Of a DNA stretch of 50,965 bases, positions 2,378 through 26,412 are shown piece after piece (the stretch's first letter is position 1; the number at the start of each line of letters is the position of its first letter). A program made the translations under genes and the position numbers. The DNA is from an uncultured Spartobacteria bacterium. GTDB taxonomy: Bacteria; Verrucomicrobiota; Verrucomicrobiia; Chthoniobacterales; Chthoniobacteraceae. The DNA is taken from positions 1 to 50,965 of the forward strand of contig CAIURC010000025.1 in assembly GCA_903901425.1 (NCBI GenBank), read 5' to 3'. Under the pieces are notes generated by a model. It ran no database searches, had not been told where the DNA came from, and worked only from the letters and a program-made list of their open reading frames with translations.

Positions 2378-2983
2378 CTAGGTCCCACAGTTATACTCCA
2401 TGCATTTTTTCATCCGCACGACAGGTAGATTTAAACTGTCGCCCATCGGAATGTCGTAACGCTCCACGACTGAGTAACCGAACGATACGTAAAGCGGTTC
2501 TCCCGCAAGTGTCGCTACGATGTCCACGGTGCGAAAGCCCGACTCCCTAATCGCTCGTTCACAAGCGATCATAATACTGCGTCCAATGCCACGCCGCGCC
2601 CAAGCAGGGTGAACGAAAAAAGCACGAACGCGCGCTGCATCTCGTTTTGGATCGAGCTCTTGATCAGGCTCGGTTCGATGTCCGTCACTACCGTAAAGAG
2701 ATCGGCGCTTGCTCCACCCGCCGCAGCCCACAATCTGGCCAGCATACTCGACGAGAAAATAAGTGCTGTCGCGAATGAGCTGCCGATCAACCCCGAAAAT
2801 CGGTCCTAACGCTGCTTCCATCTGTGCCGGAGAATAGTGAGGAGCCTGAAGGGACCGAACCGAAATAGGAATCAGTGCCTCCAATGTAGGGATGTCGTCC
2901 TCGCGTGCCAATCGTGGTTGCCAATCGATCGTATTCTCAGGCTGCACGGCCATAAGACTTCCACTAATAAGGATTTTTTTCAT
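2378..2983 (-). CDS. Cassette 3: GNAT family N-acetyltransferase
   Basis: 201 residues from the outer ATG; an inner ATG at 2953 has a better ribosome site (GGAAG just upstream) and would give 191. The GNAT fold is shown by the acetyl-CoA loop: VRAFFVHPAWARRGIGRSIM has the R-R-G-x-G-R pattern after a beta strand, followed by an amphipathic helix and the late motif PLYVSFGYSVVERYDI, where the FGY of motif B is typical. These enzymes move an acetyl group from acetyl-CoA to an amine; the substrate cannot be told. GNATs are common integron cargo, some conferring antibiotic tolerance, but nothing here identifies a resistance enzyme. About 100 bp of non-coding sequence separates its stop from the attC at 2171. 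Confidence 0.85.
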   Translation of the reverse strand: MKKILISGSLMAVQPENTIDWQPRLAREDDIPTLEALIPISVRSLQAPHYSPAQMEAALGPIFGVDRQLIRDSTYFLVEYAGQIVGCGGWSKRRSLYGSDGHRTEPDQELDPKRDAARVRAFFVHPAWARRGIGRSIMIACERAIRESGFRTVDIVATLAGEPLYVSFGYSVVERYDIPMGDSLNLPVVRMKKCMEYNCGT

Positions 2984-3056
2984 TTATTGCACGTAGTGTA
3001 GCCAATAATGGATCTAATTGCGTTTATGTTATTCTACCGCAATGTGGCGAACACAA

Positions 3057-3158
3057 ACCTAACGAAACAAACTCAGCGACGGCGTAGGAACGGCGCGGCG
3101 GCTGCCCAAGCAGCCGACGTGACGGCCCGGAGCCGTTCGCTGCAGCGCATGGTTATAT
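3057..3158 (-). repeat. attC site (about 102 bp)
   Basis: Plus strand begins ACCTAAC (3057-3063), body CTCAGCGACGGCG ... GCCGTTCGCTGCAGCGC, and ends GGTTATAT, a slightly degenerate inner core. GGCTGCCCAAGCAGCC is the loop hairpin. Same family as 398, 1753 and 4322. Confidence 0.83.
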
Positions 3159-3197
3159 TGCTTGGTGTGGATAGCATATAGGATAACTACTAGAGGC

Positions 3198-4271
3198 CTA
3201 TTTTTGTCCGCTGCATAGCCCCCTGTCCGGCGATAGAGTTTGGAAAGCCTCTTTAGTGCCGGAAAGCTTGATTTCAAACTTACTCTGATACCTCTTTGCA
3301 GTCTCTATTGAGACTCCATTTATTCTTTCCCCGCAGGCTTTTCCGGGCAATCCTGTAAGTTTCTCGAAAAAATAGAGCTCCTCAGCGGCTGCGCCTCCAG
3401 ATGGTTCCGAGAGTAGAAATTTCTCATCCTTCCATGTGAATTCTATTTTGGCGAATTCAACTTCGTTTATCAAGACAGTCGTGGTTTCGCTGTCTTCTGG
3501 TTGAACGACCCTGTAATGTTTCTCACCTACTGGCGAAGCTGGTGTCGTATCTATAGTGAATCTGGTCGGTCCCATATCTGATTCGTTCACATTTCCGTTT
3601 GTCCAGGTTAGATATTGAATCGGATAGTCATTGATCCACTTGTGGTAAATATTTTGTGTCCACCATGATTTGCGTCCGGAGGATTCATGGGTGATCAAAT
3701 ATCCAGCTGCTGTATCTGGTTCGCCGTCGCCACTGCTGGCGACAAGTTTAATATTTCTCTTATCACGGGTGGGAACGGCGATTTCGTACCCCAATCGATA
3801 ACCATCATTATTGAATGCGATAAGGAGGGCAATTGATTTGTCCGGTCCCACTGGCTTTATCGAAAAAGGCTGTTTCGTAGGCGCAATATGAAAGAACCCA
3901 CGATCCTCCCTTTGTGCACCTTCTGGAAGCCAGCAGGGAGTAAGATCCCATGCTTCCCTAAACTTCCATCTATTTCCGATCCATTCCAAATATGCTGTCT
4001 TTGATTTTGCTTCGGCGATTGCCCAAATATGTCCATCCCTAAATATTTCCCCCCAGATAACAAATCGTTCACCCGGCAGGATCGCTGTATTGACCTGATT
4101 TTTTGATTTTTGTGGCTTTATGTCCTTTAGCGCATTCTCAACATCGATTTGTATTTCTGAAATAAGATCAGACGGAATTGTAGATGCTGGTTGACTGGGC
4201 ATTGCAAATGCAACGTTCAGGCAAGCCAGCACTGCCGAAAGAATGCAAATTGCGGATTTGGGAAGTAGCAT
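3198..4271 (-). CDS. Cassette 2: exported protein of unknown function
   Basis: About 357 residues from the ATG at 4271; a GTG at 4304 would add 11. The N-terminus is a clear signal peptide (KSAICILSAVLACLNVAFA, cleavage after AFA), so the protein works outside the cytoplasm. The mature part is rich in aromatic residues and beta-strand-like patterns (WGEIFRDGHIWAIAEAKSK, YLEWIGNRWKF). No catalytic motif or known domain is visible. The gene is distinctly AT-rich compared with tex and later genes. It is the largest cargo gene. Function unknown. Confidence 0.75.
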   Translation of the reverse strand: MLLPKSAICILSAVLACLNVAFAMPSQPASTIPSDLISEIQIDVENALKDIKPQKSKNQVNTAILPGERFVIWGEIFRDGHIWAIAEAKSKTAYLEWIGNRWKFREAWDLTPCWLPEGAQREDRGFFHIAPTKQPFSIKPVGPDKSIALLIAFNNDGYRLGYEIAVPTRDKRNIKLVASSGDGEPDTAAGYLITHESSGRKSWWTQNIYHKWINDYPIQYLTWTNGNVNESDMGPTRFTIDTTPASPVGEKHYRVVQPEDSETTTVLINEVEFAKIEFTWKDEKFLLSEPSGGAAAEELYFFEKLTGLPGKACGERINGVSIETAKRYQSKFEIKLSGTKEAFQTLSPDRGLCSGQK

Positions 4272-4321
4272 GACTTGTCGGTGTAACAGTAATCGATTGA
4301 TCACGGCGAAGGTCTACAGCA

Positions 4322-4493
4322 ATCTAACGACCCCAAGCTCAGCGACTGCGGAGCGCGGCGCGGTAGCTGCGGGGTGGAGCAAAGAGAAAGCGAACGAGCG
4401 TAGGACAACGCCACGCTCGGACGAGACGGGTGCAAGCTAGAGAAAGCAGCTACCGTGACGCGCGGAGCAGTTCGCTGCAGCGCATGGTTAGGC
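4322..4493 (-). repeat. Long attC site (172 bp)
   Basis: Cores ATCTAAC (4322-4328 on plus) and GTTAGGC (4487-4493). The ends match the 102-bp family (CCAAGCTCAGCGACTGCGGAG ... TTCGCTGCAGCGCATGGTTAGGC), but the loop region is enlarged and closed by a perfect CGGTAGCTGC / GCAGCTACCG stem. Confidence 0.85.
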
Positions 4494-4500
4494 GTTGCGG

Positions 4501-5274
4501 TCATTTCTGTTGAAGCCATGCGAACAGAGAAGGTGCTACTCGGTCGTAGTCATTGTTATCGACGGTGACGAAAGACGAATCCGTCTGACTAAGCTTCGGG
4601 TCGGGTAGCGTGAGAAATACACCAGTGGCAAACGAATAAGAGTAGTTCTTGTCGTAGGCCCACGGGTCGGCAACGCCGTGGCGGGTGCTGCCACGCTGCC
4701 CGGCTGCGGTGAGAAATCCATCGTGGTTGCGGTCAACGGCGAAATGGATGCGAGAGCCCCACGGAGTAAAGACTCCTTCGGGAGTGATGCGGACCTTGTG
4801 TTTGCGGCCGCTGTGGTCGCGCATGTAGAGCGGCTCCGCCGCTCGCAATGCGTCGATGAAACCGGATACCTGCACCTCCTCGGAGTCATCGCTGAGGTAA
4901 GCAACTGCGGAAGGGTGCTCGCGGACGTAGCGGTAGAGAAAGAAGTTGATGAGGCCGCCACCGCCTGCCTGGTCGAACCACGCATAAGACGCATCATAGT
5001 TGGCCTCCCAGTTGAGCTTCTTGGCGACCATTGTGGCAGGCAACACAAGCGCGAGAACGGCAAGCAAGACGCCACTGCCACGGGAGTCTCGCGAACGCAC
5101 AATGTCGGCAAGACCAGCGATAAGTCCGATGACGGAGAAAATGAAACACGGATAGAACGCAAACGCTGCGAAAATCTCTCCGCCCGTGATCGAGGCCGGC
5201 GTATGTGCCGGGAACATGACGGCTGGAGTAAGGAGAGCCGAAATACCGACAGCGATGAAAAGAAAGCGCCTCAT
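4501..5274 (-). CDS. Cassette 1: membrane protein of unknown function
   Basis: 257 residues, the first cassette counted from the attI side. Three hydrophobic segments lie in the first third (about residues 4-22, 34-55 and 68-84), then a soluble domain of about 170 residues. The soluble part contains DRNHDGFLTAAGQ, an Asp-rich turn that resembles a calcium-binding loop, followed by an aromatic stretch (WAYDKNYSYSF). No family recognised. The start is 41 bp from the core at 5315-5321 with no obvious ribosome site, and expression would depend on a promoter upstream of the array. The final bases TGACCGCAACGCCTAACC are identical to those of cassette 7. Confidence 0.72.
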   Translation of the reverse strand: MRRFLFIAVGISALLTPAVMFPAHTPASITGGEIFAAFAFYPCFIFSVIGLIAGLADIVRSRDSRGSGVLLAVLALVLPATMVAKKLNWEANYDASYAWFDQAGGGGLINFFLYRYVREHPSAVAYLSDDSEEVQVSGFIDALRAAEPLYMRDHSGRKHKVRITPEGVFTPWGSRIHFAVDRNHDGFLTAAGQRGSTRHGVADPWAYDKNYSYSFATGVFLTLPDPKLSQTDSSFVTVDNNDYDRVAPSLFAWLQQK

Positions 5275-5314
5275 GCGGTTATCGGAGTCTCTGTCATGGG
5301 ATGCGGCGAGCAGC

Positions 5315-5400
5315 GCCTAACATGTATTATGCAGCTGCTGTAGATTTCTGCGGCTGCTGCACTATTGGGAACATGTTTATCTTTGTATATTATCAAACAT
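5315..5400 (-). other. Candidate attI-like end of the cassette array
   Basis: The first cassette begins at a GTTAGGC core (5315-5321). Upstream on the minus strand there is no attC body but an AGCAGC-rich segment (CAGCAGCCGC and CAGCAGCTGC, 5325-5360) and then an AT-rich stretch with an ATGTTT ... AAACAT inverted repeat (about 5371-5400) holding TTGATAATAT-like promoter sequence. This arrangement resembles the attI side of an integron, where cassettes insert and their promoter lies. No intI gene accompanies it, so the call stays tentative. Confidence 0.4.
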
Positions 5401-6015
5401 CCCAGAAGCAAGGCGAAACCCGCTGGGAGCATCGAGGGTGCGCAGAGGCATGGAGGAGGGGGCCAACACTCCGGGCCCCGCACCAGCAAATTAGCCGACT
5501 TGGCACACCCTTGCTTCGGGGAACCGGAGACACGGCCGTTCACTGAGGACCGTTCCCCTTTTTCAGAAGATATCGGCCAGATTGCGCACTGCAATCCCGC
5601 ATTTGTTCAAGGCAGAGTTGCTGGAGGATGGACCTACTAGACCTAATGGACTGGCTTGCTGACCCGGGGAGGCGGATGTTCTGTGGGGTGCAGAGATTCC
5701 TCGGATCGGCCGCAGCCAGATTTTGCACCACCGGCTGCCTCCGGATTCTATTTTTTATCCTGTCTCCATGCGTTTGCCTCCCCTTTCCATAAAAGAATCG
5801 TTGAGAGGTGGGTTTTTGGACTCAGGAAAGCTCCGCTTAAATTTTTAGGTTCATGGATCTCTGCAGAGCAGCAGAACCATTCCCAATTCCCCGGCAATCC
5901 AATCGCCCCCCCACCCTGGCCCGAACACTCCCCCCCCAACAAAAATCCCGGCCTCCCCTTTTCCGGCGGTTGACTCCGGGCTCGGACTCCCCATCATTTG
6001 CCCCCTTTCCCCGAC
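5322..6015. other. 694-bp intergenic region with no supported gene
   Basis: Between the cassette array and tex I find no ORF with recognisable homology. In particular there is no tyrosine-recombinase signature (no R..H-x-x-R or Tyr motif of an integrase) in either strand. The left end holds the attI-like segment, 5518-5563 holds a hairpin, and 5905-5940 is C-rich. It may be a decayed integrase locus or plain spacer carrying the tex promoter. Confidence 0.5.
5518..5563 (+). terminator. Possible terminator hairpin with T-run
   Basis: GGGGAAC (5518-5524) pairs perfectly with GTTCCCC (5552-5558), followed by TTTTT. The loop is long (27 nt), which weakens the call. No plus-strand gene precedes it in the window. 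Confidence 0.35.
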
Positions 6016-8280
6016 ATGCTCGAAAAACACGTCCTCAAAATCGCCCAGGAACTCAAACTGCAACTCCGGCAGGTGGCCTCGACGGCCATTCTCCTCGAAG
6101 AAGGGGGCACTGTCCCCTTCATTGCCCGGTACCGGAAGGAAAAAACCGGTGAACTCGACGAGGTACAGATCACCTCGATCCGGGACCGGCTTGAGCAACT
6201 CGAGGAACTCGACAAACGCCGGGAATCGATCCTCAGCTCGCTGACAGAACGCAGCCTGCTTACCGCGGAACTCGCAGCCAAGATCGAGGCCGCTGAAACC
6301 CTTTCCAGCCTCGAAGACATCTACCAACCGTTCCGTCCAAAAAAGCGGACCAAGGCCACCATTGCCCGGGAGAAAGGACTCGAGCCTCTTGCCGACATTC
6401 TTTGGGCACAGAACCCGGCCACCCAGCCGAAGGTGGAAGCGGCGGCGTTTGTCGATGCGGCCAAGGAGGTTGCCACTCCCGAGGAAGCCTTGGCCGGTGC
6501 CCGCGACATTCTCGCCGAACGGATCAGTGACGATGCCGGTGCCCGCGCCAAACTGCGCGAACTCTACCTCCAGAAAGGCGTGATCAAGTCCAAGGTGGTT
6601 TCCGGCAAGGAGGAGGAAGGCGCGAAGTTCAAGGATTACTTTGACTGGAACGAACCCGCAGCCAACGCGCCGTCGCACCGGGTTCTGGCCATCCGCCGAG
6701 GCGAGAATGAAGGGGTCCTGTTTTCGCGGCTGACTCCGCCAGAAGAGGAGGCGATTCTGGCTCTTGAAATTTTGTTTATGAAAGGGTCCTCGCCGGCAGC
6801 TTTGGAGATCAAGGCAGCGGTGGCCGATTGCTACAAACGGCTTATTGGGTTCGCCATGGAAGGCGAAGCCCGGATTGCCGTGAAAAAACGGGCCGACGAG
6901 GAAGCCATCCGCGTTTTTGCCGAGAACCTCCGGGAACTCCTGCTGGCCTCCCCGCTCGGACAGAAAAACATGCTCGCCATTGATCCCGGGTTCCGGACCG
7001 GTTGCAAGGTGGTGGTGCTCGACCGGCAGGGCAAACTGCTCGGACACGACGTGATTTACCCCGAACAAGGCGCACGAAACGCATCCGATGCGGCTGAAGC
7101 CATCCGCGGGGTGGTTAAGAAGTTCAACATTGAGGCAATTGCCATCGGCAACGGGACGGCCGGACGCGAGACCGAAGCGTTTGTCCGCAAACTGGGGCTG
7201 CCGCCTTCGGTGACAATCGTGTCGGTCAACGAGAGCGGGGCGTCGATTTACTCGGCCAGCGAAGTCGCGCGCGAAGAGTTTCCGGACCACGACATCACGG
7301 TCCGTGGCGCGGTGTCGATCGGGAGACGGTTGATGGATCCCCTTGCGGAACTGGTGAAGCTCGATCCGAAATCGATTGGGGTGGGGCAATACCAGCACGA
7401 CGTGGACCAGAACGCGCTCAAGCGCTCGCTGGACGACGTCGTGATGAGCTGCGTGAACGGCGTGGGGGTGGAACTCAATACCGCGAGCAAACAGCTCCTG
7501 AGCTACGTTGCCGGTCTCAACTCGCGGACTGCCGCCAACATTGTGGCGCACCGGAACGAAAATGGTCCGTTCAAGTCGCGCCGGGAGCTGCTCAAGGTGG
7601 CGGGCCTCGGTCCCAAGGCGTATGAACAAGCCGCCGGCTTCCTCCGGATCCGGGATGGCGAACATCCGCTGGATGCCAGCGCCGTGCACCCGGAACGGTA
7701 TGAATTGGTGGACCGGATGGCCTCGGACTTGGGCTGTGCCGTGAGCGATCTGCTGCGGGACTCAGGGAAACGCTCCCGGATCCAGCCCGAAAAATACGCG
7801 ACCGCCGAGGTGGGTCTTCCGACCTTGAAAGACATTATGGCGGAACTGGCCAAACCGGGTCGGGATCCGCGTCAGCAGTTCGAGGTGTTCTCCTTCAACG
7901 AAGGTGTTCAGGAAATGAGCGACCTGAAGGTGGGAATGAAACTGCCGGGGATCATTACCAACGTGACGGCGTTTGGAGCATTCGTGGACATTGGGGTCCA
8001 CCAAGACGGCCTGGTCCATGTCAGCCAACTCTCGGACAATTTCGTCAAGAACCCGGCGGAAGTGGTCAAGGTCGCCCAACGAGTCCAGGTGACTGTGACC
8101 GAGGTGGATCTGGCCCGGAAACGGATCGCCCTTTCCATGAAGTCCAAGCCCGAGCTTGCTCCGCGCGGGGAACGCAAGCCCGAGGCCGGTCCGCGGGACA
8201 TGAAACGCTTTGGCCAGTCCAGTCCGCAACCGGCCTCCGGCAACGATTGGTTTAGCCAGGCCATGCAGCGCCGCAAATAG
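6016..8280 (+). CDS. tex: Tex family RNA-binding transcription accessory protein
   Basis: 754 residues from the ATG at 6016 (a TTG at 5998 would add six). Order of domains: N-terminal helical region, a YqgF/RNase H-like domain from about residue 315 (NMLAIDPGFRTGCKVVVLD), helix-hairpin-helix region at about 505-545 (AANIVAHRNENGPFKSRREL, then AGLGPKAYEQAAGFLRI), and a C-terminal S1 RNA-binding domain from about 636 (GMKLPGIITNVTAFGAFVD, LVHVSQLSDNFV). Length and order match the family. Tex binds nucleic acid and influences transcription; its exact task is not settled. moaA follows after 11 bp and may be co-transcribed. Confidence 0.96.
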   Translation: MLEKHVLKIAQELKLQLRQVASTAILLEEGGTVPFIARYRKEKTGELDEVQITSIRDRLEQLEELDKRRESILSSLTERSLLTAELAAKIEAAETLSSLEDIYQPFRPKKRTKATIAREKGLEPLADILWAQNPATQPKVEAAAFVDAAKEVATPEEALAGARDILAERISDDAGARAKLRELYLQKGVIKSKVVSGKEEEGAKFKDYFDWNEPAANAPSHRVLAIRRGENEGVLFSRLTPPEEEAILALEILFMKGSSPAALEIKAAVADCYKRLIGFAMEGEARIAVKKRADEEAIRVFAENLRELLLASPLGQKNMLAIDPGFRTGCKVVVLDRQGKLLGHDVIYPEQGARNASDAAEAIRGVVKKFNIEAIAIGNGTAGRETEAFVRKLGLPPSVTIVSVNESGASIYSASEVAREEFPDHDITVRGAVSIGRRLMDPLAELVKLDPKSIGVGQYQHDVDQNALKRSLDDVVMSCVNGVGVELNTASKQLLSYVAGLNSRTAANIVAHRNENGPFKSRRELLKVAGLGPKAYEQAAGFLRIRDGEHPLDASAVHPERYELVDRMASDLGCAVSDLLRDSGKRSRIQPEKYATAEVGLPTLKDIMAELAKPGRDPRQQFEVFSFNEGVQEMSDLKVGMKLPGIITNVTAFGAFVDIGVHQDGLVHVSQLSDNFVKNPAEVVKVAQRVQVTVTEVDLARKRIALSMKSKPELAPRGERKPEAGPRDMKRFGQSSPQPASGNDWFSQAMQRRK

Positions 8281-8291
8281 ACACCGTCCCC

Positions 8292-9302
8292 GTGGACGCC
8301 TCCGATCGTTTCAGCCGACGCCTGCGTGACCTGCGCATTTCGGTGACCGACCGGTGTAATTTCCGGTGCACGTACTGCATGCCGAAGGAGATCTACGGGA
8401 GCGCCCACCCGTTTCTTCCGCGGAGCGAGCTGCTGTCTTTTGAGGAAATCGCAGCACTGGCTGGGGCGTTTGTCCGGAACGGGGTCGAAAAACTCCGGAT
8501 CACCGGGGGCGAACCCCTGCTCCGCCGGGACTTGCCCAAACTGATCGGGATGCTGCGCGGCTTGCCCGGGGTCAGCGAGATTGCGCTCACCACCAACGGA
8601 GCGCTTCTGGCAGAGCACGCCCGGGCCCTGCGTGGGGCCGGGCTCGACCGCCTCACGGTCAGTGTGGACGCGGTGGAGCCCACCGTGTTCCGTGCGATGA
8701 ACGACGTGGGGTTTCCCGTAGAAAAAGTTTTGGCGGGAATTGAAGCGGCTCAGGAAGCCGGGTTTGAGCCGGTGAAGATCAACGCGGTGATCCGCCGGGG
8801 CGTCAACGAAAACCAGATCGTGCCGCTCGCCCGGCGGTTTCTCAACCGGGCCCATGTGCTGCGGTTCATCGAGTACATGGACGTGGGAGAAACCAACGGG
8901 TGGAAAATGCAGGACGTGGTTCCGGGCGAGGAAATTCTCCGGACCCTAGAGTCGCATTTTGCGCTCAATCCCCTGCCCCCGAATTATCCGGGTGAAGTGG
9001 CCAAACGCTTTGCCCACACGGGTCCGGAGGGAGGCGAGATTGGGGTGATCACCTCGGTAACGCAGCCGTTTTGCGGTGACTGTACCCGGGCCCGGCTCTC
9101 GGCGGACGGCCGTCTGTACACCTGCCTGTTTTCGGGAACCGGCCATGACCTCCGCGGGCCGCTCCGCGCCGGCGCAACGGACGAACACCTCGACGCAGCC
9201 ATCCGCGCGGTCTGGACTGCCCGTGCGGACCGGTACTCGGAGATCCGTTTTTCTGCGACCCCAAAACTGCCAAAGCCGGAGATGTCGCGGCTCGGGGGTT
9301 GA
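8292..9302 (+). CDS. moaA: GTP 3',8-cyclase (MoaA), molybdenum cofactor synthesis
   Basis: 336 residues, GTG start 11 bp after tex. MoaA is a radical-SAM enzyme that, with MoaC, turns GTP into cyclic pyranopterin monophosphate. The radical-SAM cluster is CNFRCTYC (Cys22, 26, 29). A second cluster motif is Cys261, Cys264 and Cys278 (CGDCTRARLS ... LYTC). KLRITGGEPLLRRDL is the SAM-binding GGE motif. The protein ends in Gly-Gly, the conserved MoaA tail needed for catalysis. The gene converges on mog, 13 bp away. Confidence 0.97.
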   Translation: MDASDRFSRRLRDLRISVTDRCNFRCTYCMPKEIYGSAHPFLPRSELLSFEEIAALAGAFVRNGVEKLRITGGEPLLRRDLPKLIGMLRGLPGVSEIALTTNGALLAEHARALRGAGLDRLTVSVDAVEPTVFRAMNDVGFPVEKVLAGIEAAQEAGFEPVKINAVIRRGVNENQIVPLARRFLNRAHVLRFIEYMDVGETNGWKMQDVVPGEEILRTLESHFALNPLPPNYPGEVAKRFAHTGPEGGEIGVITSVTQPFCGDCTRARLSADGRLYTCLFSGTGHDLRGPLRAGATDEHLDAAIRAVWTARADRYSEIRFSATPKLPKPEMSRLGG

Positions 9303-9315
9303 AAAGTTTCCCTGT

Positions 9316-9792
9316 TCAGGACTCGCCGCGGAGATGGCGGAGCGCCTCGCGGATTGCAGGGAGCAGCAACGGGAGGCACTCGCCAATCGCACGGGGGTTG
9401 CCAGGCAGGTTCACCACGAGGCTCTGGCCCCGGGTCCCGGCTGTGGCGCGGGAAAGGATGGCCGTGGGCACCTTGGCGTAGGACTGCATCCGCATGACCT
9501 CGCCGAATCCGGGGAGTTCCCGGTCGAGCACCTCGCGGGTGGCTTCCGGCGTCACATCGCGGGCGGAAGGCCCCGTGCCTCCAGTGGTGACCACCAGATC
9601 GCAGTGCTCCAGATCGCACAGCTCCCGAAGCGTTTCTGCGATCTGTGCCTGTTCGTCGGGCAAAATCCGGGCCACCCATTCGACGGGATCCGCCCAGAGT
9701 TCGGCAATGACGCGTTCGATTTCGGGCCCACTCCGGTCCGTGTAAACACCGGCTGAAGCCCTGTCGCTGAGTGTGAGACGGCCTATTTTCAT
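9316..9792 (-). CDS. mog: Molybdopterin adenylyltransferase (MogA/MoaB family)
   Basis: 158 residues. The ATG at 9792 overlaps the moaC stop in an ATGA arrangement; a longer open frame exists but has no family support. MKIGRLTLSDRAS at the N-terminus and the MPT-binding stretch TTGGTGPSARDVTPEAT are the hallmarks of the MoCF family. The enzyme activates molybdopterin with AMP before molybdate insertion by MoeA. MogA and MoaB types cannot be separated with certainty by eye. Last gene of the moeA-moaC-mog operon on the minus strand. Confidence 0.9.
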   Translation of the reverse strand: MKIGRLTLSDRASAGVYTDRSGPEIERVIAELWADPVEWVARILPDEQAQIAETLRELCDLEHCDLVVTTGGTGPSARDVTPEATREVLDRELPGFGEVMRMQSYAKVPTAILSRATAGTRGQSLVVNLPGNPRAIGECLPLLLPAIREALRHLRGES

Positions 9793-10244
9793 CCCTTGAT
9801 TTTCTCCACGACGCGGATGGCGCCCAGTTCCATTCCCTTGTCCACGGCCTTGCACATGTCGTACAGGGTCAATCCGGCCACCGCCACGGCCGTAAGCGCC
9901 TCCATTTCCACACCGGTCTTGGCCGAGGTCGACGCTTCCGCACGGATCACGATCCGATCGGTGTCCACTTGGAAACTGAGGTCCACGCCATCCAGCGGCA
10001 GCGAATGACAGAGTGGGATGAGTTCATCGGTGCGTTTTGCCGCCTGAATTCCCGCCAGCTTGGCCACCGTGAGCACATCCCCCTTGGGAAGCGCTTTCTG
10101 TTGTAACGCCCGGATCGTGTCGGGATGACACTTCAATTCCCCACAGGCCACCGCCCGGCGGCGCTCCGTCACCTTGTGCCCCACATCCACCATGCGCGCC
10201 CCTCCGGCAGCATCCAAATGCGAAAAATCAGACCCTTTTTCCAT
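9789..10244 (-). CDS. moaC: Cyclic pyranopterin monophosphate synthase (MoaC)
   Basis: 151 residues, full length. MoaC converts 3',8-cyclo-GTP made by MoaA into cyclic pyranopterin monophosphate. The signature motifs are present: ARMVDVGHKVTERR near the start, IPLCHSLPLDGVDL (HxL loop), KTGVEMEALTAVAVA and YDMCKAVDKGM with its catalytic lysines. It starts 3 bp after the moeA stop and overlaps mog by 4 bp, so the three genes are one translationally coupled operon. Confidence 0.97.
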   Translation of the reverse strand: MEKGSDFSHLDAAGGARMVDVGHKVTERRRAVACGELKCHPDTIRALQQKALPKGDVLTVAKLAGIQAAKRTDELIPLCHSLPLDGVDLSFQVDTDRIVIRAEASTSAKTGVEMEALTAVAVAGLTLYDMCKAVDKGMELGAIRVVEKIKG

Positions 10245-10247
10245 CCG

Positions 10248-11453
10248 TCAATCCAACCGGAGCCCGCGCTCCTTCAGCAACAAGCATTTCACCGGATCCC
10301 CGCTTTTCCACGGACCCGACTCCGCGGGCAACCAGAGCAACACCCCGGCTCCGGCCACTCCGCACAAATCCCCGGAACTGCGCCATCCCAACGGAACGGC
10401 CTCCAACCCGGAATTTCCGACCCGTAGGCGGCCCGGCCAGAAGGTCTCCCTCCGGTCGAGCTTTCCCGGGAGGTCTTCCGCCAAGAGCGCCGGAACAAAC
10501 TCCCATGCCGGGACAGCTCCCAGCAACCGTTCCAGAGCCAGACGCACCGCGACTTCGAACACCACCCAGTGCGACACCGGATTGCCCGGAAGGAGAAAGG
10601 CGGCCTGCGGTCCCCGGGTCGCAAAACCCACCGGTTTGCCTGGCCGGAGCCTGACCCCATGGAACCGCAGATCGAATCCCAAGGCCTGAAGTGCGCGAGG
10701 CCCGAAATCGTAGTCACCCACGCTGGCGCCGCCGCTGATGAGCAGCAGATCCCACGGGATATCGACTCCTTCGACTGTCTCGACAAAAGCCTCCAGACGA
10801 TCTGAAACACGCCCCTGCCAGACGATTTCGCCTCCAGCCGCCTCCACCAATCCCGCCACAAGAGACGAGTTTGAGTCCCGGATTTCGCCGGGGCCGGGCA
10901 CGGTGCCCGGCGGGACCAGTTCGTTGCCGGTGACCAGATGGATCACCCGGGGCCGGGGTGCGATTTGGGGGGCGATAGCCCCCAACTGTGCCAGCAGCGA
11001 GACTTGCGGCGCTCTTAGAATGGTTCCCGGTTTGAGCAGAACGGTTCCTGCCCGCACATCTTCTCCCCTGCGTCGGACATGGATTCCGCCAAAGCGCTCC
11101 AGAGGAACCATCCAGTCTCCCTCCCGGCGGACAGCCTCCTGCGGGATCACCTCGGTGCATCCGGCGGGAAGGGCCGCGCCGGTGAAAACACGGAAACATT
11201 CTCCCAGCGCAAGCGTCTGAGTGGCCGCCGCGCCCGGCTGGATCTCGCCCCGTACCGCAAACCGGGAAGCGGTGTCTTCCGCATGGAGGGCGTACCCGTC
11301 CATGGCGGAGCGGTCAAACGCCGGAAAATCTTCCGGAGCAGCGATTTCCTCGCGCAACACCCGGCCATAAAGCGCTCCCCAAGCTCCCGTTTCTGCGGGA
11401 AGCGGATGGAGCGCCTGTTGAATTGTCTGCCTGGCCTCAGAAAGCGAGATCAT
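10248..11453 (-). CDS. moeA: Molybdopterin molybdotransferase (MoeA)
   Basis: 401 residues. MoeA inserts molybdate into adenylated molybdopterin. Family features: N-terminal EDFPAFDRSAMDGYALHAED, the GCTEVIPQEAV region, the central MoCF domain with VTGNELVPPG and LLISGGASVGDYDF, the AFLLPGNPVSHWVVFEV motif and a C-terminal beta barrel. First gene of the moeA-moaC-mog operon. It is divergent from moaD with an 89-bp spacer that must hold both promoters. Confidence 0.97.
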   Translation of the reverse strand: MISLSEARQTIQQALHPLPAETGAWGALYGRVLREEIAAPEDFPAFDRSAMDGYALHAEDTASRFAVRGEIQPGAAATQTLALGECFRVFTGAALPAGCTEVIPQEAVRREGDWMVPLERFGGIHVRRRGEDVRAGTVLLKPGTILRAPQVSLLAQLGAIAPQIAPRPRVIHLVTGNELVPPGTVPGPGEIRDSNSSLVAGLVEAAGGEIVWQGRVSDRLEAFVETVEGVDIPWDLLLISGGASVGDYDFGPRALQALGFDLRFHGVRLRPGKPVGFATRGPQAAFLLPGNPVSHWVVFEVAVRLALERLLGAVPAWEFVPALLAEDLPGKLDRRETFWPGRLRVGNSGLEAVPLGWRSSGDLCGVAGAGVLLWLPAESGPWKSGDPVKCLLLKERGLRLD

Positions 11454-11542
11454 GATCCGGGAACTAATCCAAAAGAAGTCGGCTCCGGCAATCCCGGCGT
11501 GTGCAGGTTTGGAGCGCAGGATTGCTTCCCGGCTGAGCTTCC

Positions 11543-11788
11543 ATGCAGTGTGAAGGGGTGCAGATCAGGATTTTAGCCTTTGCGTCCGCCAGCGAACAGA
11601 TCGGGGTGCGCGAGACGGACATGGAATACTCGCCGGCCGACACGCCGCGCCAGATTTTGGCGCGACTGTGTCCGGCGTTTGACCCGGCCTCGGCGCGGGT
11701 GGCGTTGGATTGCGATTATGTGGGCTGGGATACGCCGGTAGGCAACGCGCGGGAACTGGCTGTGCTGCCCCCGGTGAGCGGAGGTTGA
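11543..11788 (+). CDS. moaD: Molybdopterin synthase sulfur carrier subunit (MoaD)
   Basis: 81 residues with the ubiquitin-like fold of MoaD (VQIRILAFASASEQIGVRE ... PRQILARLCP ... NARELAVLPPVSGG). The C-terminal Gly-Gly is the site that is adenylated and thiocarboxylated. It delivers sulfur to the MoaE active site. moaE starts 19 bp downstream. The activating enzyme MoeB is not in the window. The first residues are uncertain, since a GTG at about 11561 is also possible. Confidence 0.93.
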   Translation: MQCEGVQIRILAFASASEQIGVRETDMEYSPADTPRQILARLCPAFDPASARVALDCDYVGWDTPVGNARELAVLPPVSGG

Positions 11789-11807
11789 GCGTCCGGAGGA
11801 CAAGCCC

Positions 11808-12221
11808 ATGCATTTTTCGATCCTTTTTACAAACAACCCGATTGTCGTCCCCCCGGCCCCGGCTGGTGCCCGTGAAACCGGAGCGGTGGTGGAGTTTCAC
11901 GGAGTGGTCCGTGAGCTCGAGAACGGGGTTCCGCTGTTGGGGCTGCAGTACGAGGCGTACGAGCCCATGGCCCGGCGTCAACTCGAGTCGATCTTTGAAT
12001 CGCTCCAGCGGGTTGCGCCGGTGCATTCGGTGGAGTTCATTCATCGGGTGGGCTGGGTGCCCGTCGGGGAAGCTTCGCTCTACCTCCGGATCACCGCATC
12101 GCACCGGGGTGAGGCATTTTTGTTCTGCAAGGAAACCATCGACGCAATGAAACGGAATGTGCCGATCTGGAAAACGTTTCCATCGAAAAACCTGTTGACT
12201 CCGCAGGCCGGGCTCACCTAG
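11808..12221 (+). CDS. moaE: Molybdopterin synthase catalytic subunit (MoaE)
   Basis: 137 residues. Together with MoaD it adds two sulfurs to cyclic pyranopterin monophosphate to give molybdopterin. Conserved parts: ETGAVVEFHGVVRELENG, the LQYEAYEPMA stretch, and the catalytic block HRGEAFLFCKETIDAMKRNV followed by PIWK with its lysines. A good ribosome site (GGAGGA) lies eight bases before the ATG. Slightly shorter at both ends than the E. coli protein but complete. Confidence 0.95.
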   Translation: MHFSILFTNNPIVVPPAPAGARETGAVVEFHGVVRELENGVPLLGLQYEAYEPMARRQLESIFESLQRVAPVHSVEFIHRVGWVPVGEASLYLRITASHRGEAFLFCKETIDAMKRNVPIWKTFPSKNLLTPQAGLT

Positions 12222-12232
12222 GTTGCCGCCCG

Positions 12233-12402
12233 CTTTCATCGAGAGTGACTGAGGGACTGGCCCGTTGAAGTCACGGCAACCGCTGAAAGCCTCGTGGAGG
12301 TCCAGTTCCAGTTTTTGGATCAGGATTTTCAAGGAGGCCGACAGGACCAGGTGCCAAATCCAGCTTAAAATCAGCGCTGCTGTTTTTAGGGAAAGATGAG
12401 AG
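12233..12402 (+). promoter_or_regulatory. SAM-I (S-box) riboswitch
   Basis: All core parts are visible. P1 pairs CTTTCATC (12233-12240) with GATGAGAG (12395-12402). P2 is a perfect GTGACT / AGTCAC (12245-12250, 12269-12274) enclosing GAGGGACTGGCCCGTTGAAG, which carries the kink-turn and pseudoknot sequences. CGGCAACCG follows, then an enlarged P3 (GCCTC 12289-12293 with GAGGC 12334-12338), the SAM-pocket strand AGGTGCCAAATCC (12349-12361), P4, and GGGAAAGATGAG. S-box elements bind S-adenosylmethionine and shut off downstream methionine or sulfur genes. About 80 bp separate P1 from the likely start codon at 12486. I see no strong terminator, so control may act on translation. Confidence 0.9.
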
Positions 12403-12485
12403 GTCGTAGTTCGCTTAAAAATGGGCGGATTATGAACCACCCGTCGGAACGGAAGTCCGGTCCTCTTGGGAAAGCAATCAACCCC

Positions 12486-13742
12486 ATGGAAAACTCCTTT
12501 TTCAGCAACCTCAAGTGCCGCGAGTGCGGGAAGCTTTACCCGAAGCAAGCCATCCACGTCTGCGACTTCGACTTTGGACCGCTGGAGGCCGTGTACGACT
12601 ACGAAGCGATCCGCGGCAAACTCACCCGCCAACTGATCGAATCGCGGCCGCAATCCATGTGGCGGTACCGCGAACTGCTCCCGATTGACGGCGAACCCAC
12701 GGTGGGACGCCAGGTTGGGTTCACGCCGCTGGTCAAGGCCGACCGTCTGGCCAAGGCCCTCGGGATCCGCGAGCTCTACATCAAAAACGACACGGTCAAC
12801 TACCCCACCCTCTCGTTCAAGGACCGCGTGGTGTCTGTCGCTCTGAGCCGGGCCCGGGAACTGGGATTTGAGGTGGTGGCATGCGCCTCCACGGGGAACT
12901 TGGCCAACTCGGTCGCCGCCAACGCCGCAAGCGCTGGTCTGAAGAGCTACGTGCTCATTCCGGCCGATCTGGAGCAGGGCAAAGTGCTCGGCTCGCTGGT
13001 GTACGGAACCCAGGTGGTTGCGATCCATGGGGCCTACGACCAGGTCAACCGGCTCTGCTCGGAAATCGCCGGGAAATACGGCTGGGGATTCGTGAACGTC
13101 AATCTGCGCCCGTACTACGCGGAAGGCTCAAAAACCATGGGATTCGAGATCGCCGAACAGCTGGGCTGGCGTCTGCCGCAACACACGGTGATTCCGATGG
13201 CCAGCGGTTCATTGCTGACCAAGATCCACAAGGCGTACAAGGAGTTCATCGACCTCGGGTTGGTGGAAAAAACACCGTTCAGTGTGCACGGGGCTCAGGC
13301 CACTGGATGCTCCCCGATCAGCACCTCGCTCAAGCGGGGCAGCGATCTGGTCAAGCCCGTCGCAAAACCCCAGACCATCGCAAAGTCATTGGCCATCGGG
13401 ACACCGGCCGACGGCTACTACGCCATCCATTCCATGAACCAGACCGGCGGGTCCGCCGACGACTGTTCCGATGAGGAAATCATCGAGGGCATCCGGCTCT
13501 TGGCGGAGCATGAAGGCATTTTTGCAGAAACCGCAGGCGGCGTAACCGTGGGCTGCGCGAAGAAGTTGATCGCGTCCGGCAAGATCCCGGCCGATTCGAG
13601 CGCCGTGCTTTGCATTACCGGGAATGGGCTCAAGACGCAGGAAGCACTTCTGAATCAGTGCGGGGCGCCGCGGGTGATCAACCCGAGCCTTCGCGAATTC
13701 GAGGACCAGATTTATCAACCCGACCTTGCTGCAGCATTCTAG
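12486..13742 (+). CDS. Threonine-synthase-like PLP enzyme under SAM-riboswitch control
   Basis: 418 residues from the ATG at 12486. Earlier in-frame starts lie inside or next to the riboswitch (12396, 12432) and are unlikely. The N-terminus carries a small zinc-ribbon-like Cys set (LKCRECGKLYPKQAIHVC). The fold-type-II PLP domain shows the cofactor lysine in TLSFKDRVV and the phosphate loop region ACASTGNLANSVAANAA, as in threonine synthase. Ordinary threonine synthase makes threonine from O-phosphohomoserine. Its place behind a SAM-I riboswitch and ahead of a ThiS-like carrier and a NIL protein suggests instead that it uses phosphohomoserine (or a related ester) with protein-bound sulfide to make homocysteine. 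That role is inferred; a plain ThrC cannot be excluded. Confidence 0.85.
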   Translation: MENSFFSNLKCRECGKLYPKQAIHVCDFDFGPLEAVYDYEAIRGKLTRQLIESRPQSMWRYRELLPIDGEPTVGRQVGFTPLVKADRLAKALGIRELYIKNDTVNYPTLSFKDRVVSVALSRARELGFEVVACASTGNLANSVAANAASAGLKSYVLIPADLEQGKVLGSLVYGTQVVAIHGAYDQVNRLCSEIAGKYGWGFVNVNLRPYYAEGSKTMGFEIAEQLGWRLPQHTVIPMASGSLLTKIHKAYKEFIDLGLVEKTPFSVHGAQATGCSPISTSLKRGSDLVKPVAKPQTIAKSLAIGTPADGYYAIHSMNQTGGSADDCSDEEIIEGIRLLAEHEGIFAETAGGVTVGCAKKLIASGKIPADSSAVLCITGNGLKTQEALLNQCGAPRVINPSLREFEDQIYQPDLAAAF

Positions 13743-13760
13743 TTTTTAAAATCCTACTCT

Positions 13761-14033
13761 ATGCCGTCCGTACTCATCCCCACTCCGCTCCGAAAACTTA
13801 CCAACGACCTGGATCTGGTCCAGGCCGATGGAGCTACCATTGCCGAGGTTTTCGCCAATCTCGAAAAAGCATTTCCAGGCATCCAAGAACGCATCTGTGA
13901 CGACAAAGGCTGCATCCGCCGCTTTGTGAACGTCTTTGTAAACGGTGAAGACGTCCGATTCTTGGAAGAAACTGCGACCCCGGTCCATTCGAACGACGAA
14001 ATCAGCATCGTGCCAGCGATTGCAGGAGGCTAG
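13761..14033 (+). CDS. ThiS/MoaD-family sulfur carrier protein
   Basis: 90 residues, beta-grasp carrier with the expected pattern: IPTPLRKLTNDLDLVQADG, a helix AEVFANLEKAFPGI, RFVNVFVNGEDVRF and the tail SIVPAIAGG ending in Gly-Gly, where a thiocarboxylate would form. It begins 18 bp after the PLP enzyme and is surely co-transcribed. Such carriers donate sulfide to a partner enzyme, as CysO does for CysM in mycobacteria and HcyS in a homocysteine pathway described for Wolinella. It differs from the MoaD encoded at 11543, so two carriers coexist here. Partner assignment is by context. Confidence 0.9.
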   Translation: MPSVLIPTPLRKLTNDLDLVQADGATIAEVFANLEKAFPGIQERICDDKGCIRRFVNVFVNGEDVRFLEETATPVHSNDEISIVPAIAGG

Positions 14034-14129
14034 AATCGCGCACATCCCTTGACATGATCGTCCTGTGGTCCCGTTTGCGGACCCACCGGGCGAGACCCGC
14101 TGCTGACCCTGTTTCCACACTCTTTTTGT

Positions 14130-14378
14130 ATGGCAGAAGAAAAAACGCGCCTCTGGCTGATGTTTCCCGCCCGGCTCATTACGCGGCCGATCATTTGGGA
14201 ACTGGCCAAAAAGTTTGAGGTCGTGACAAACATTCGGCAGGCGAGCATCACGGATGAAGTGGGATTGCTCTCGCTGTCGTTCCAGGGGGAAAGGTCTGAG
14301 ATTAAAGCGGCCATCGCGTGGTTGGAGGAGATGGGCGTCAAGGTGGAACCAGTGGAGATCAACACGATCGAAGGCTGA
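14130..14378 (+). CDS. NIL-domain protein
   Basis: 82 residues made almost only of a NIL domain (RLWLMFPARLITRPIIWELA, a ferredoxin-like fold with EVGLLSLSFQGE and MGVKVEPVEI). NIL domains are best known from the C-terminus of the methionine transporter ATPase MetN, where they sense methionine, and from small proteins linked to homocysteine synthesis. The gene lies 96 bp after the sulfur carrier with the same strand. Its likely job is a methionine-linked binding or accessory function in the same pathway. No Cys cluster is present, so it is not a NIL-ferredoxin fusion. Confidence 0.85.
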   Translation: MAEEKTRLWLMFPARLITRPIIWELAKKFEVVTNIRQASITDEVGLLSLSFQGERSEIKAAIAWLEEMGVKVEPVEINTIEG

Positions 14379-14461
14379 GTTGCCCTGGGGAACTCAACTG
14401 CACTCAACACCGGTCGATCGGATATACCGCGGTTCTTAGGCCGGCCCGGCCCTGCTGAGCG

Positions 14462-16477
14462 TTACGTAAGGGTTGCATGCTCTGCAATGCACGCTCCTGA
14501 TCTTGGGACCGTCTGTCCTTGGACTGTTTCTTCAGACTGAGCGTCAGCCTGCGGTTCCGTTTTCGTGCCGAGCTTGGAAGCTTCAACCGCCAAGATACAG
14601 ACGTCATCATGAAAACCGCCCGTCCGTGACGCAGAGCGGACTTCAGCCAACAGGCGATCGAGCAGTGTTTCGGTTTCCATGCCCGCATTCCGCTCTATGA
14701 CGGGGAGCAGCCAACTGCGATCCAGCATTCCGCCTCCGGGAGTTTCCACCTCGTATAATCCGTCCGTGATCAGAAAGAGGCGGTCTCCCTGCTCCATTTT
14801 GAGATAACGCTCTGGATAAACGGCGCGCTCAAAAATTCCAAGCGCAGGCCCGCGGACGCCGCCCCCGCCTTCCCCAGAGCGCTCTGTGAACGCCCTGCTG
14901 CTTTTCAAGAAAATCGGCGCTGGATGTCCGGCATTCGCGTAGCGGAGAAGCCCGGTCTCTACATCTGCAACCCCGTAGAACGCGGTGGAAAACAACGGAC
15001 TGCCGAGCCTCCGGAGAATTCCGTGGAGCGCCCCGTTCATTTTCGCCAGGAAGGCGCTAGGAATCCCGGCGACGTCTGCCATCCCCTCGGCAAGAGCCCG
15101 CTGCAGCGCGGTCACCAAAGCCGCCCGGACACCGTGCCCCATGACATCGCAGATTAAGACTCCCACACTCCGATCGCTCACCTGCACAACGTGGAAGAAA
15201 TCTCCGCCCAGCGCCTCGGCTGGAACGTAGCGGCTATGAAACCGGAAGGCTGGCTCCGGCGCGGTTCTTGGAAAAGTGCGGTACTGCTGGGGAAAGAAAG
15301 CAAGCTGCACCTCCCTCGCCATTTCCAGATCCTCCTCCAGTTCTAGGTTTTTGCGCCGCAATTCCTCCATGGACTCCAACAACTGCGCCTCGATGAGCTT
15401 GGTTTCCGTGATGTCGCGTCCAATCCCAATCATGCCGAGCAGGCGGCCACTCCGGTCCCGGAAAGGCACCTTGGTGGTGGAGTACCAGTGTTTCTCGCCC
15501 CCTGGGTGCTCTACAACCTCGGTCCGGTTTAAGACGGGTATCCCGGTGCGCGCGACTCGTTCGTCATCCCATTCTCGGGTCTCACCGGCCCTTGGATGGC
15601 CGCAGAGGATCCGCCGTTCCTCGTTGCCCCCTTCGGCTGGGCTGATCCGGCAGGTCGCCCCTGACGCATTGTGCGCCGGCGCAGCTCGCTCGGAGAAACC
15701 GGCCGAGCCTCCGTTCCCCGAGGACTCGCCCAGAGCATGGGCAATGTTATCGAGCAGATAGTTCCCTTCCAGATCCTTGACGTAGATCGTATCGGGCAAC
15801 TGGTCGATCACCCGCTTAAAGAGGCTCCGTTCGTCCTCGATTCTTCTGTCCAGTTCAGCACGGGTGATCCCGTACCGGATGACCCGGCCGAGAAGGGCGG
15901 CATCAAACCGCCCTTTGACCAGATAATCCTGCCCCCCCATTTCGACGGTTTTCAACGCGAGCTGCTCGTCGTCCCGGCCGCTCAACACTACCACCGGGAC
16001 ACGGCCAGGGTTGAGACAAATCTGGCTGAATGTGTCCAAACCTTGGCTGTCCGGAAGCGAGAGGTCACACAACACCATGTCGATCCGCGGCTCCTGGCGC
16101 AACCTCTCCAGACCGTCCGCCAACCGATCCCGGACCTCCCAGCGCACCGGAAAAGCCAGGCTCCGGAGCATTCGCTCCAGAAGCTCGCGGTCCAACCGGC
16201 TGTCCTCCAGCACCAGGACACTCACTGTTCCTTCCTCCTCAGACTGAGGTTTCTCCGCTCCTGTTTTTCCACCCGCTTCCCTCCGGAGATCAGGGAGTTC
16301 ACGTGGGGATTCCAACCGGGGGGAGGCGGCCGCGGGTAGAAATAATACCGGTCCCTCATCTCCCCCCGGCTGGAGAAGTGCAGTTCCTGGAGGATCCGTA
16401 CCCTCCCTGCGCCCCTCCCCCTTTCCGTCTACCGCAACTCCCGGCCGTGCCACCTCACTCATACCTCCCCATTCCAC
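14462..16477 (-). CDS. Response regulator with PAS domain and PP2C (SpoIIE-type) phosphatase
   Basis: 671 residues. A low-complexity N-terminus (about 1-82) is followed by a receiver domain (about 85-205; acidic pair in LVLEDS, phospho-acceptor Asp138 in VLCDLSLPDS, Lys188 in YLVKG), a PAS domain with PAC (about 218-380), a coiled-coil linker (RRKNLELEEDLEMAREVQLA) and a SpoIIE/PP2C phosphatase (about 395-640; GGDFFHVVQVSD and VLICDVMGHGVRAALV hold the metal-binding Asp residues, and ANAGHPAPIFL follows). Such RsbU-like proteins dephosphorylate anti-sigma-antagonist proteins in partner-switching control of stress responses. No partner STAS or anti-sigma gene is nearby. An ATG at 16462 is an equally possible start. 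Confidence 0.93.
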   Translation of the reverse strand: MEWGGMSEVARPGVAVDGKGEGRREGTDPPGTALLQPGGDEGPVLFLPAAASPRLESPRELPDLRREAGGKTGAEKPQSEEEGTVSVLVLEDSRLDRELLERMLRSLAFPVRWEVRDRLADGLERLRQEPRIDMVLCDLSLPDSQGLDTFSQICLNPGRVPVVVLSGRDDEQLALKTVEMGGQDYLVKGRFDAALLGRVIRYGITRAELDRRIEDERSLFKRVIDQLPDTIYVKDLEGNYLLDNIAHALGESSGNGGSAGFSERAAPAHNASGATCRISPAEGGNEERRILCGHPRAGETREWDDERVARTGIPVLNRTEVVEHPGGEKHWYSTTKVPFRDRSGRLLGMIGIGRDITETKLIEAQLLESMEELRRKNLELEEDLEMAREVQLAFFPQQYRTFPRTAPEPAFRFHSRYVPAEALGGDFFHVVQVSDRSVGVLICDVMGHGVRAALVTALQRALAEGMADVAGIPSAFLAKMNGALHGILRRLGSPLFSTAFYGVADVETGLLRYANAGHPAPIFLKSSRAFTERSGEGGGGVRGPALGIFERAVYPERYLKMEQGDRLFLITDGLYEVETPGGGMLDRSWLLPVIERNAGMETETLLDRLLAEVRSASRTGGFHDDVCILAVEASKLGTKTEPQADAQSEETVQGQTVPRSGACIAEHATLT

Positions 16478-26337: not shown

Positions 26338-26412
<75 letters not shown>

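Follow-up and report, generated by a model that had tools for sequence, protein, structure and literature searches.

The closest described counterpart of the gene cluster considered here is the MetM/MetO system of Streptomyces, in which MetM converts O-phosphohomoserine (OPHS) to homocysteine (PMC12172450, citing Hasebe 2024). According to the accessible part of the same source, metO is a gene of the sulfur carrier family, metM of Streptomyces albulus has an S-adenosylmethionine (SAM) riboswitch upstream, and homologues of MetM occur in cyanobacteria (PMC12172450). Here, a cluster of similar composition is described in a stretch of 50,965 nucleotides (contig CAIURC010000025.1, hereafter the window) from an uncultured Spartobacteria bacterium, where a SAM-I (S-box) riboswitch is followed on the plus strand by three co-directional open reading frames (ORFs) for a pyridoxal phosphate (PLP) enzyme with a PALP domain, a sulfur carrier and a NIL-domain protein (Table 1). 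The locus resembles MetM/MetO of S. albulus in its PLP enzyme similar to threonine synthase (ThrC), in the adjoining carrier and in the SAM riboswitch upstream, and differs from it in the additional NIL gene and in its phylum, the Verrucomicrobiota. An actinomycete locus (Nonomuraea, L119) shares the order riboswitch, enzyme, carrier. The thiocarboxylated carrier is said, in the 2024 work of Hasebe, to be the sulfur donor of MetM. Judged by sequence comparison, the operon is very probably a MetM-MetO methionine operon with NIL as a third gene, and its enzyme a homocysteine synthase (probability about 0.87). A carrier-dependent homocysteine pathway had been proposed for this locus in an earlier note, made from the letters alone; the proposal is supported by genomics and by the MetM/MetO precedent, and only its novelty has to be given up, the core idea being in print since 2024. 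Any novelty would lie in the form of the operon that carries NIL, and in how widely this form is spread.

Other known systems share some of these traits. In Mycobacterium, CysM-CysO makes cysteine by means of a fold-II PLP enzyme that receives sulfur from a carrier thiocarboxylate; the window has in common with it the fold-II PLP enzyme and a CysO-like carrier, and is set apart by the product of that system and by the different PLP subfamily of its enzyme. We know of no SAM-I riboswitch associated with CysM-CysO. In Wolinella, homocysteine is obtained from the carrier thiocarboxylate of HcyS by MetY, a member of the PF01053 family acting on O-acetylhomoserine, unlike the genome of the window, in which no MetY-type PF01053 enzyme was found. 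The accessible part of a survey of such gene neighbourhoods places Wsuc in class 4e (PMC1779556). Homocysteine synthesis is also combined with a NIL domain in L-aspartate semialdehyde sulfurtransferase (L-ASST; DUF39/HcyBio plus a NIL-ferredoxin protein), a route in which homoserine is not an intermediate, as far as the text available to us goes (PMC5764234); the present case differs in that HcyBio was not found in the genome and the NIL protein of the window has no ferredoxin domain. ThrC itself shares the fold, the PLP lysine (113 of P0001) and the presumed substrate OPHS, from which the window enzyme is distinguished by changed substrate-site motifs and by a separate ThrC in its own genome.

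In the pathway that we infer, in its substrate, its sulfur transfer, the E1 that serves the carrier, the sign of riboswitch control and the role of NIL, ThrB would phosphorylate homoserine to OPHS, and a MoeB-rhodanese E1 would adenylate the C-terminal GG of the carrier on the way to the thiocarboxylate. The ThrC-like enzyme would remove phosphate from OPHS on PLP and add the carrier sulfur at C-gamma, yielding homocysteine for methylation by MetH, while the separate true ThrC would turn the same OPHS into threonine. SAM would turn the operon off via the riboswitch, and the NIL protein would bind methionine and tune the enzyme or the hand-over from the carrier.

Table 1. Coordinates of the riboswitch and the three genes of the proposed operon in the window
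Feature	Position	Strand	Basis
SAM-I (S-box) riboswitch aptamer	12233..12402	+	Rfam RF00162, 70 bits
MetM-like PLP enzyme (ThrC-like), P0001, 418 aa; proposed OPHS-dependent homocysteine synthase	12486..13742	+	PALP/TIGR00260, clade, motif
MetO-like ThiS/MoaD sulfur carrier, P0002, 90 aa, C-terminal GG	13761..14033	+	ThiS, 60 bits
Stand-alone NIL-domain protein, P0003, 82 aa; proposed methionine-sensing accessory subunit	14130..14378	+	PF09383, 53.3 bits

Family, clade and substrate site of the enzyme

The complete SAM-I aptamer ahead of three co-directional genes, which the earlier note had read from the sequence, was recovered over the whole RF00162 model (positions 1-108, E 2.1e-14, gathering cut-off 44.4 bits; cmscan). 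Likewise, profile matches bear out the assignment of the three products to the ThrC group of PLP enzymes, to ThiS/MoaD proteins with a terminal GG and to NIL proteins: P0001 matched Pfam PALP with 219 bits and NCBIfam TIGR00260 (thrC) with 282 bits against a cut-off of 167.1, P0002, ending in ...AIAGG, matched ThiS, and P0003 matched NIL. The match of P0001 to NF006050 (282.9 bits) lies under the cut-off of 303. The identity of a cysteate synthase was ruled out (TIGR03844, 66 bits against a cut-off of 325).

Relatives were collected from two sources. Among 288 genomes drawn from Verrucomicrobiota, 12 were found to encode proteins at least 68% identical to the enzyme, all other matches listed being at most 41% identical; each of these 12 genomes holds a second ThrC-like match, which is short in G121. 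From the named genomes, 80 relatives were kept, the best of 578, and the counts accordingly describe the nearest relatives only; these loci span Verrucomicrobiota, one Kiritimatiellota, Zetaproteobacteria, one betaproteobacterial bin, Myxococcota and Thermodesulfobacteriota, the closest being metagenome-assembled genomes (MAGs) of Chthoniobacteraceae. Together with the Nonomuraea enzyme, which is 55% identical to that of the window, they make up a set of 93. In a tree built by a quick method, a branch with a Shimodaira-Hasegawa-like approximate likelihood ratio (SH-aLRT) of 100 separates the 93 relatives from 36 other ThrC-like rows; long branches were flagged in it, that of the actinomycete included. 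The label ThrC for the 36 comparison rows is ours, and the six that read GGGT in the loop may not be ThrC.

The PLP lysine, K113 (residue numbers follow P0001, counting one residue ahead of the Met at 12486), is kept in all 93 relatives and in 35 of the 36 other rows, the remaining one having a gap. By contrast, the motif RP[YF]YAEG is present in 93/93 relatives versus 0/36 other ThrC-like rows, and A[SG]GS, likewise in 93/93, is represented in the other rows mostly by GNAG, GDGN or GGGT. Column 240, where this second stretch begins, is A in every relative and G in every comparison row, and R209, Y212 and A240 are invariant across the set. The same difference in motifs is seen against the solved ThrC 2zsj. 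In ThrC structures, both stretches surround the phosphate group of the substrate. The enzyme thus does not match the substrate-site motifs of the ThrC-like rows. An AlphaFold model of it, computed from 12 rows, reached a mean predicted local distance difference test score (pLDDT) of 52 and was not used.

Methionine and threonine routes in the genomes with the enzyme

The genome to which the window belongs is a draft (5.1 Mb, 224 contigs, 96% complete), and absences from it are therefore not final. It contains ThrB (185 bits, with neighbours in frame), MetH, CysK (over its cut-off) and NifS, and a second ThrC, C114, which scores higher than P0001 (315 bits) and is not under SAM-I; in a scan of the whole draft, the riboswitch of the window was the single SAM-I found. 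A true Cys_Met_Meta_PP enzyme (PF01053, the MetB/C/Y family) was not found in it: of three weak matches, one exceeds the cut-off by 1 bit, and they turn out to be NifS, a BioF-like protein and an aminotransferase. Neither was MetX found, and HcyBio (PF01837) gave 0 matches in a search whose control was positive in 3/14 named genomes. A canonical homocysteine route was thus not found in this genome; MetA was not searched for, but would need a PF01053 partner. The earlier note had named, as evidence against its proposal, the lack of another threonine synthase together with assays yielding threonine only, or a complete conventional methionine route under the same riboswitch family; at the level of sequence neither applies, since the genome has C114, and no conventional route was found in it under this or any other riboswitch.

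Across the phylum draw, PF01053 (E 1e-15) is absent from 20 of the 288 genomes, namely 11 of the 12 with the enzyme versus 9 of the 276 without it (naive Fisher p 8e-14, genomes being counted without correction for kinship), and of the six families in which the enzyme occurs, five are without PF01053. The co-occurrence of the cluster with an absence of metX, metB and metY, to which the earlier note had looked, thus takes the form of near mutual exclusion. Matches to the MetX model occur in 2/12 genomes with the enzyme, all under a cut-off so strict that 0/9 positive named control genomes passed it, and MetH was found in 4/12 (MetE not searched for). The candidate Xiphinematobacter americani genome G036 (L013/L137) contains MetM and MetO; in G036 and in G057 (L012), the riboswitch, NIL, PF01053, MetX and MetH were not found, MetE not being searched for. 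The accessible parts of the Xiphinematobacter genome papers describe the methionine pathway as incomplete (PMC4607532, PMC7857533).

Because TIGR00260 labels the enzyme threonine synthase, genomes using it can pass for methionine auxotrophs. With the signature of SAM-I, RP[YF]YAEG enzyme, GG carrier and, in many cases, NIL, predictions of methionine synthesis could be put right for Verrucomicrobiota as well as for Mariprofundus-type and certain deltaproteobacterial lineages, and what the small conserved NIL gene does becomes open to direct testing.

Linkage of riboswitch and carrier to the enzyme

Since the loci were picked by the enzyme alone, the links to carrier, NIL and riboswitch are not circular. 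The carrier adjoins the enzyme in all 12 phylum genomes that have it and was found in 90 of the 93 loci, four being fragments shorter than 80 aa. The riboswitch lies beside the enzyme in 9/12 phylum genomes; with model R1, built from nine leaders of the phylum, it was found in 74 of the 80 named loci, always upstream and on the same strand. In 72 of the 74, it stands 53-195 nt ahead of the matched start, the others lying 1.0 kb (L115) and 2.2 kb (L109) upstream. No riboswitch was found in L039, L070, L094 and L106, where the upstream DNA is shorter than 150 nt. A recheck with Rfam of 15 loci, mostly weak or odd, gave 13 passing the gathering cut-off, while L012 and L016, missed by R1 too, failed.

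Several observations weigh against the reading of the operon as MetM-MetO. The riboswitch is absent from three of the 12 phylum genomes (L012, L013, L016) and from two of the 80 named loci (L068 and L086) despite ample upstream DNA. No NIL match was obtained anywhere in four of the 12 phylum genomes, nor at the actinomycete locus, the rest of the Nonomuraea record not being searched; NIL is therefore not essential to the reaction. One genome of the 12, G257, has the enzyme together with the PF01053 family and a MetX-like protein (106 bits), and seems to retain both routes, possibly by transfer or in a transition between them. In the tree, the MetM-type reference is the Nonomuraea enzyme, standing in for S. 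albulus MetM. Finally, TIGR00260 scores the enzyme as thrC over its cut-off, and the main published counter-result concerns a Microcystis homologue which, in the accessible part of the report, is 51.6% identical to MetM, has no riboswitch, acts mainly as a threonine synthase with deaminase activity and is not fully MetM-like in cells (PMC12172450). This result cautions against taking every homologue for a MetM and, given its absence in Microcystis, the SAM riboswitch is not universal to MetM/MetO.

The last two points would suit a second, SAM-regulated threonine synthase, perhaps with deaminase side activity, beside which the carrier would be an unrelated neighbour: the window enzyme exceeds the cut-off of the thrC profile, and the Microcystis protein was active as threonine synthase and deaminase in vitro, according to the same accessible text (PMC12172450). 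Such an enzyme is nevertheless very unlikely here, as the genome of the window and each of the 12 genomes encode another ThrC-like protein, the ThrC-type motif is replaced in 93/93 relatives, the carrier is a constant neighbour in 12/12, and the enzyme and the MetB/C/Y family nearly exclude each other.

Homocysteine synthesis from OPHS has also to be weighed against a cysteine synthase of the O-phosphoserine or serine type, working with a carrier in the manner of CysM-CysO. The best solved relatives of the carrier are 3dwg (entry name 9.5 kDa culture filtrate antigen cfp10A), which we take to be CysO, and 4n6e, and the enzyme belongs to the same fold-II PLP superfamily; yet CysK is over its cut-off in the own genome, control is by SAM-I and not by cysteine, and the homocysteine gap would remain. 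The clusters of several relatives bear on the same point. In Mariprofundus-type/Zetaproteobacteria and deltaproteobacterial loci, the cluster additionally contains a cysteine synthase and, mostly, an E1 of the MoeB/ThiF type without rhodanese domain, and because the cysteine synthase genes are already there, the enzyme is unlikely to be a cysteine synthase in those proteobacterial loci. For the window, we consider a cysteine synthase highly improbable.

Some of the extended clusters also hold a sulfite-reductase-like protein, TusA or a JAMM protease. Sulfite-reductase-like and TusA genes occur together in the cluster of three deltaproteobacterial MAGs (L109, L116, L117), while the zetaproteobacterial sulfite reductase matches are weak (26-28% identity). 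In L109, a Desulfuromonadales MAG, positions 2646-8998 carry on one strand the riboswitch, CysK, an E1, MetM, the sulfite-reductase-like gene, TusA, a fusion of MetO and NIL on one polypeptide, and a second E1. ThiS/MoaD operons with E1, JAB, SirA and sulfite reductase were already catalogued in 2006 in a paper whose accessible part has no whole-word mention of threonine synthase, NIL or methionine (PMC1779556).

As for the carriers, 74 end exactly in GG. Eleven run one or two residues beyond it (L092, L093, L100, L104, L105, L111 and L113-L117), with the ends GGK, GGR, GGC, GGM, GGCA, GGRS and GGTR; ten of these are in proteobacterial loci and one (L111) in a Verrucomicrobia bin. The carrier of L015 has seven residues after GG, and the fused protein of L109 has its GG inside the chain. 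The residues beyond GG suggest C-terminal trimming of such carriers, and a JAMM-like gene lies nearby in L115-L117. HcyS of Wolinella undergoes C-terminal trimming. The genome of the window encodes three ThiF-family proteins, of which the putative E1 is a MoeB that ends in a rhodanese domain.

The NIL protein and the borders of the operon

NIL adjoins the enzyme in 8/12 phylum genomes and is present in 67 of the 93 loci, once fused to the carrier (L109); five of the 26 loci without it have less than 600 nt of downstream DNA, and in L055 it lies upstream on the opposite strand. In Foldseek, the predicted structure of P0003 (pLDDT 80.5) was closest to NIL/C-terminal domains from transporters of the MetN type: 11 PDB entries matched with E <= 0.001, all of them such domains of MetN or ABC transporters, with MetN 3tuz at E 4.5e-6. 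Because P0003 is predicted to fold like the MetN NIL domain, the protein may act as a methionine-sensing feedback subunit, a role to which we would give slightly less than even odds. The carrier-dependent homocysteine synthase of these lineages could consist of three parts, MetM, MetO and a free methionine-binding NIL protein that would throttle the enzyme, SAM controlling the RNA and methionine the protein; this wider picture is tentative, and we hold it with a little more reserve. It would resemble L-ASST, for which the accessible text reports a proposal that methionine and SAM are sensed by NIL and CBS domains borne on catalytic chains unrelated to each other (PMC12068725).

Alternatively, and as the main rival to methionine sensing, NIL could serve the carrier as an adaptor for docking or sulfur transfer. 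The MetO-NIL fusion of L109 somewhat favours this role, and a NIL domain is also part of the NIL/ferredoxin protein needed for DUF39 homocysteine synthesis, according to the accessible parts of two papers (PMC5764234, PMC12068725). Within the family, the triad N[IVL]R is conserved in 65 of the 67 NIL proteins, and one column is Cys in 32 of them. This triad is presumably the one that names the NIL family. An adaptor nonetheless appears somewhat less likely than a sensor, since no cysteine is invariant, the closest structural matches are to NIL domains from ABC transporters, MetN included, and NIL is missing from 26/93 loci, including the five with little downstream DNA. That NIL is itself a carrier, as its conserved ...IEG end might suggest, was rejected: the last two letters are EG in 28, ES in 25, AG in 5 and AS in 3 of the 67 proteins, and never GG. 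A tblastn search of NIL against plasmid records returned 15 weak records, in which the annotated genes are MetN or ABC ATPases.

Among the openly accessible papers listed in the literature searches, no description of a NIL gene with the MetM-MetO system was found, which is weak evidence of novelty, nor was a paper found that joins Verrucomicrobia, SAM riboswitch and methionine biosynthesis.

The enzyme ORF was called mechanically from 12396, within the aptamer; because the homologues begin near the residue aligned with the ATG at 12486, the gene start was set there, and the 418 aa frame of Table 1 is probably the true gene. No terminator-like site was found on the plus strand of 12150-14520, and the operon is bounded downstream by a convergent minus-strand ORF (14462-16477). 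In the fold of the leader, the 5' end of the aptamer pairs alternatively with downstream bases (z -2.85), an observation from one sequence that is not leaned on. The aptamer, at 170 nt the longest among nine aligned leaders, has an unaligned insertion after GGCAACC of 64 nt versus 13 in the consensus.

The aptamer starts 11 nt past the stop of moaE (12221). Molybdopterin genes lie just upstream of the riboswitch (9316-12221), with MoaD-like and MoaE genes on the plus strand and Mog-, MoaC- and MoeA-like ORFs, judged by eye, on the minus strand. A functional tie of the adjoining MoaE to the operon was rejected, as a tblastn search with MoaE (E 1e-5) matched none of the 80 named loci, although the upstream DNA is short in some; the molybdopterin genes are regarded as local neighbours that may share an E1 with the operon. 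A tRNA gene is located further along the window (26338-26409, plus strand, 70 bits).

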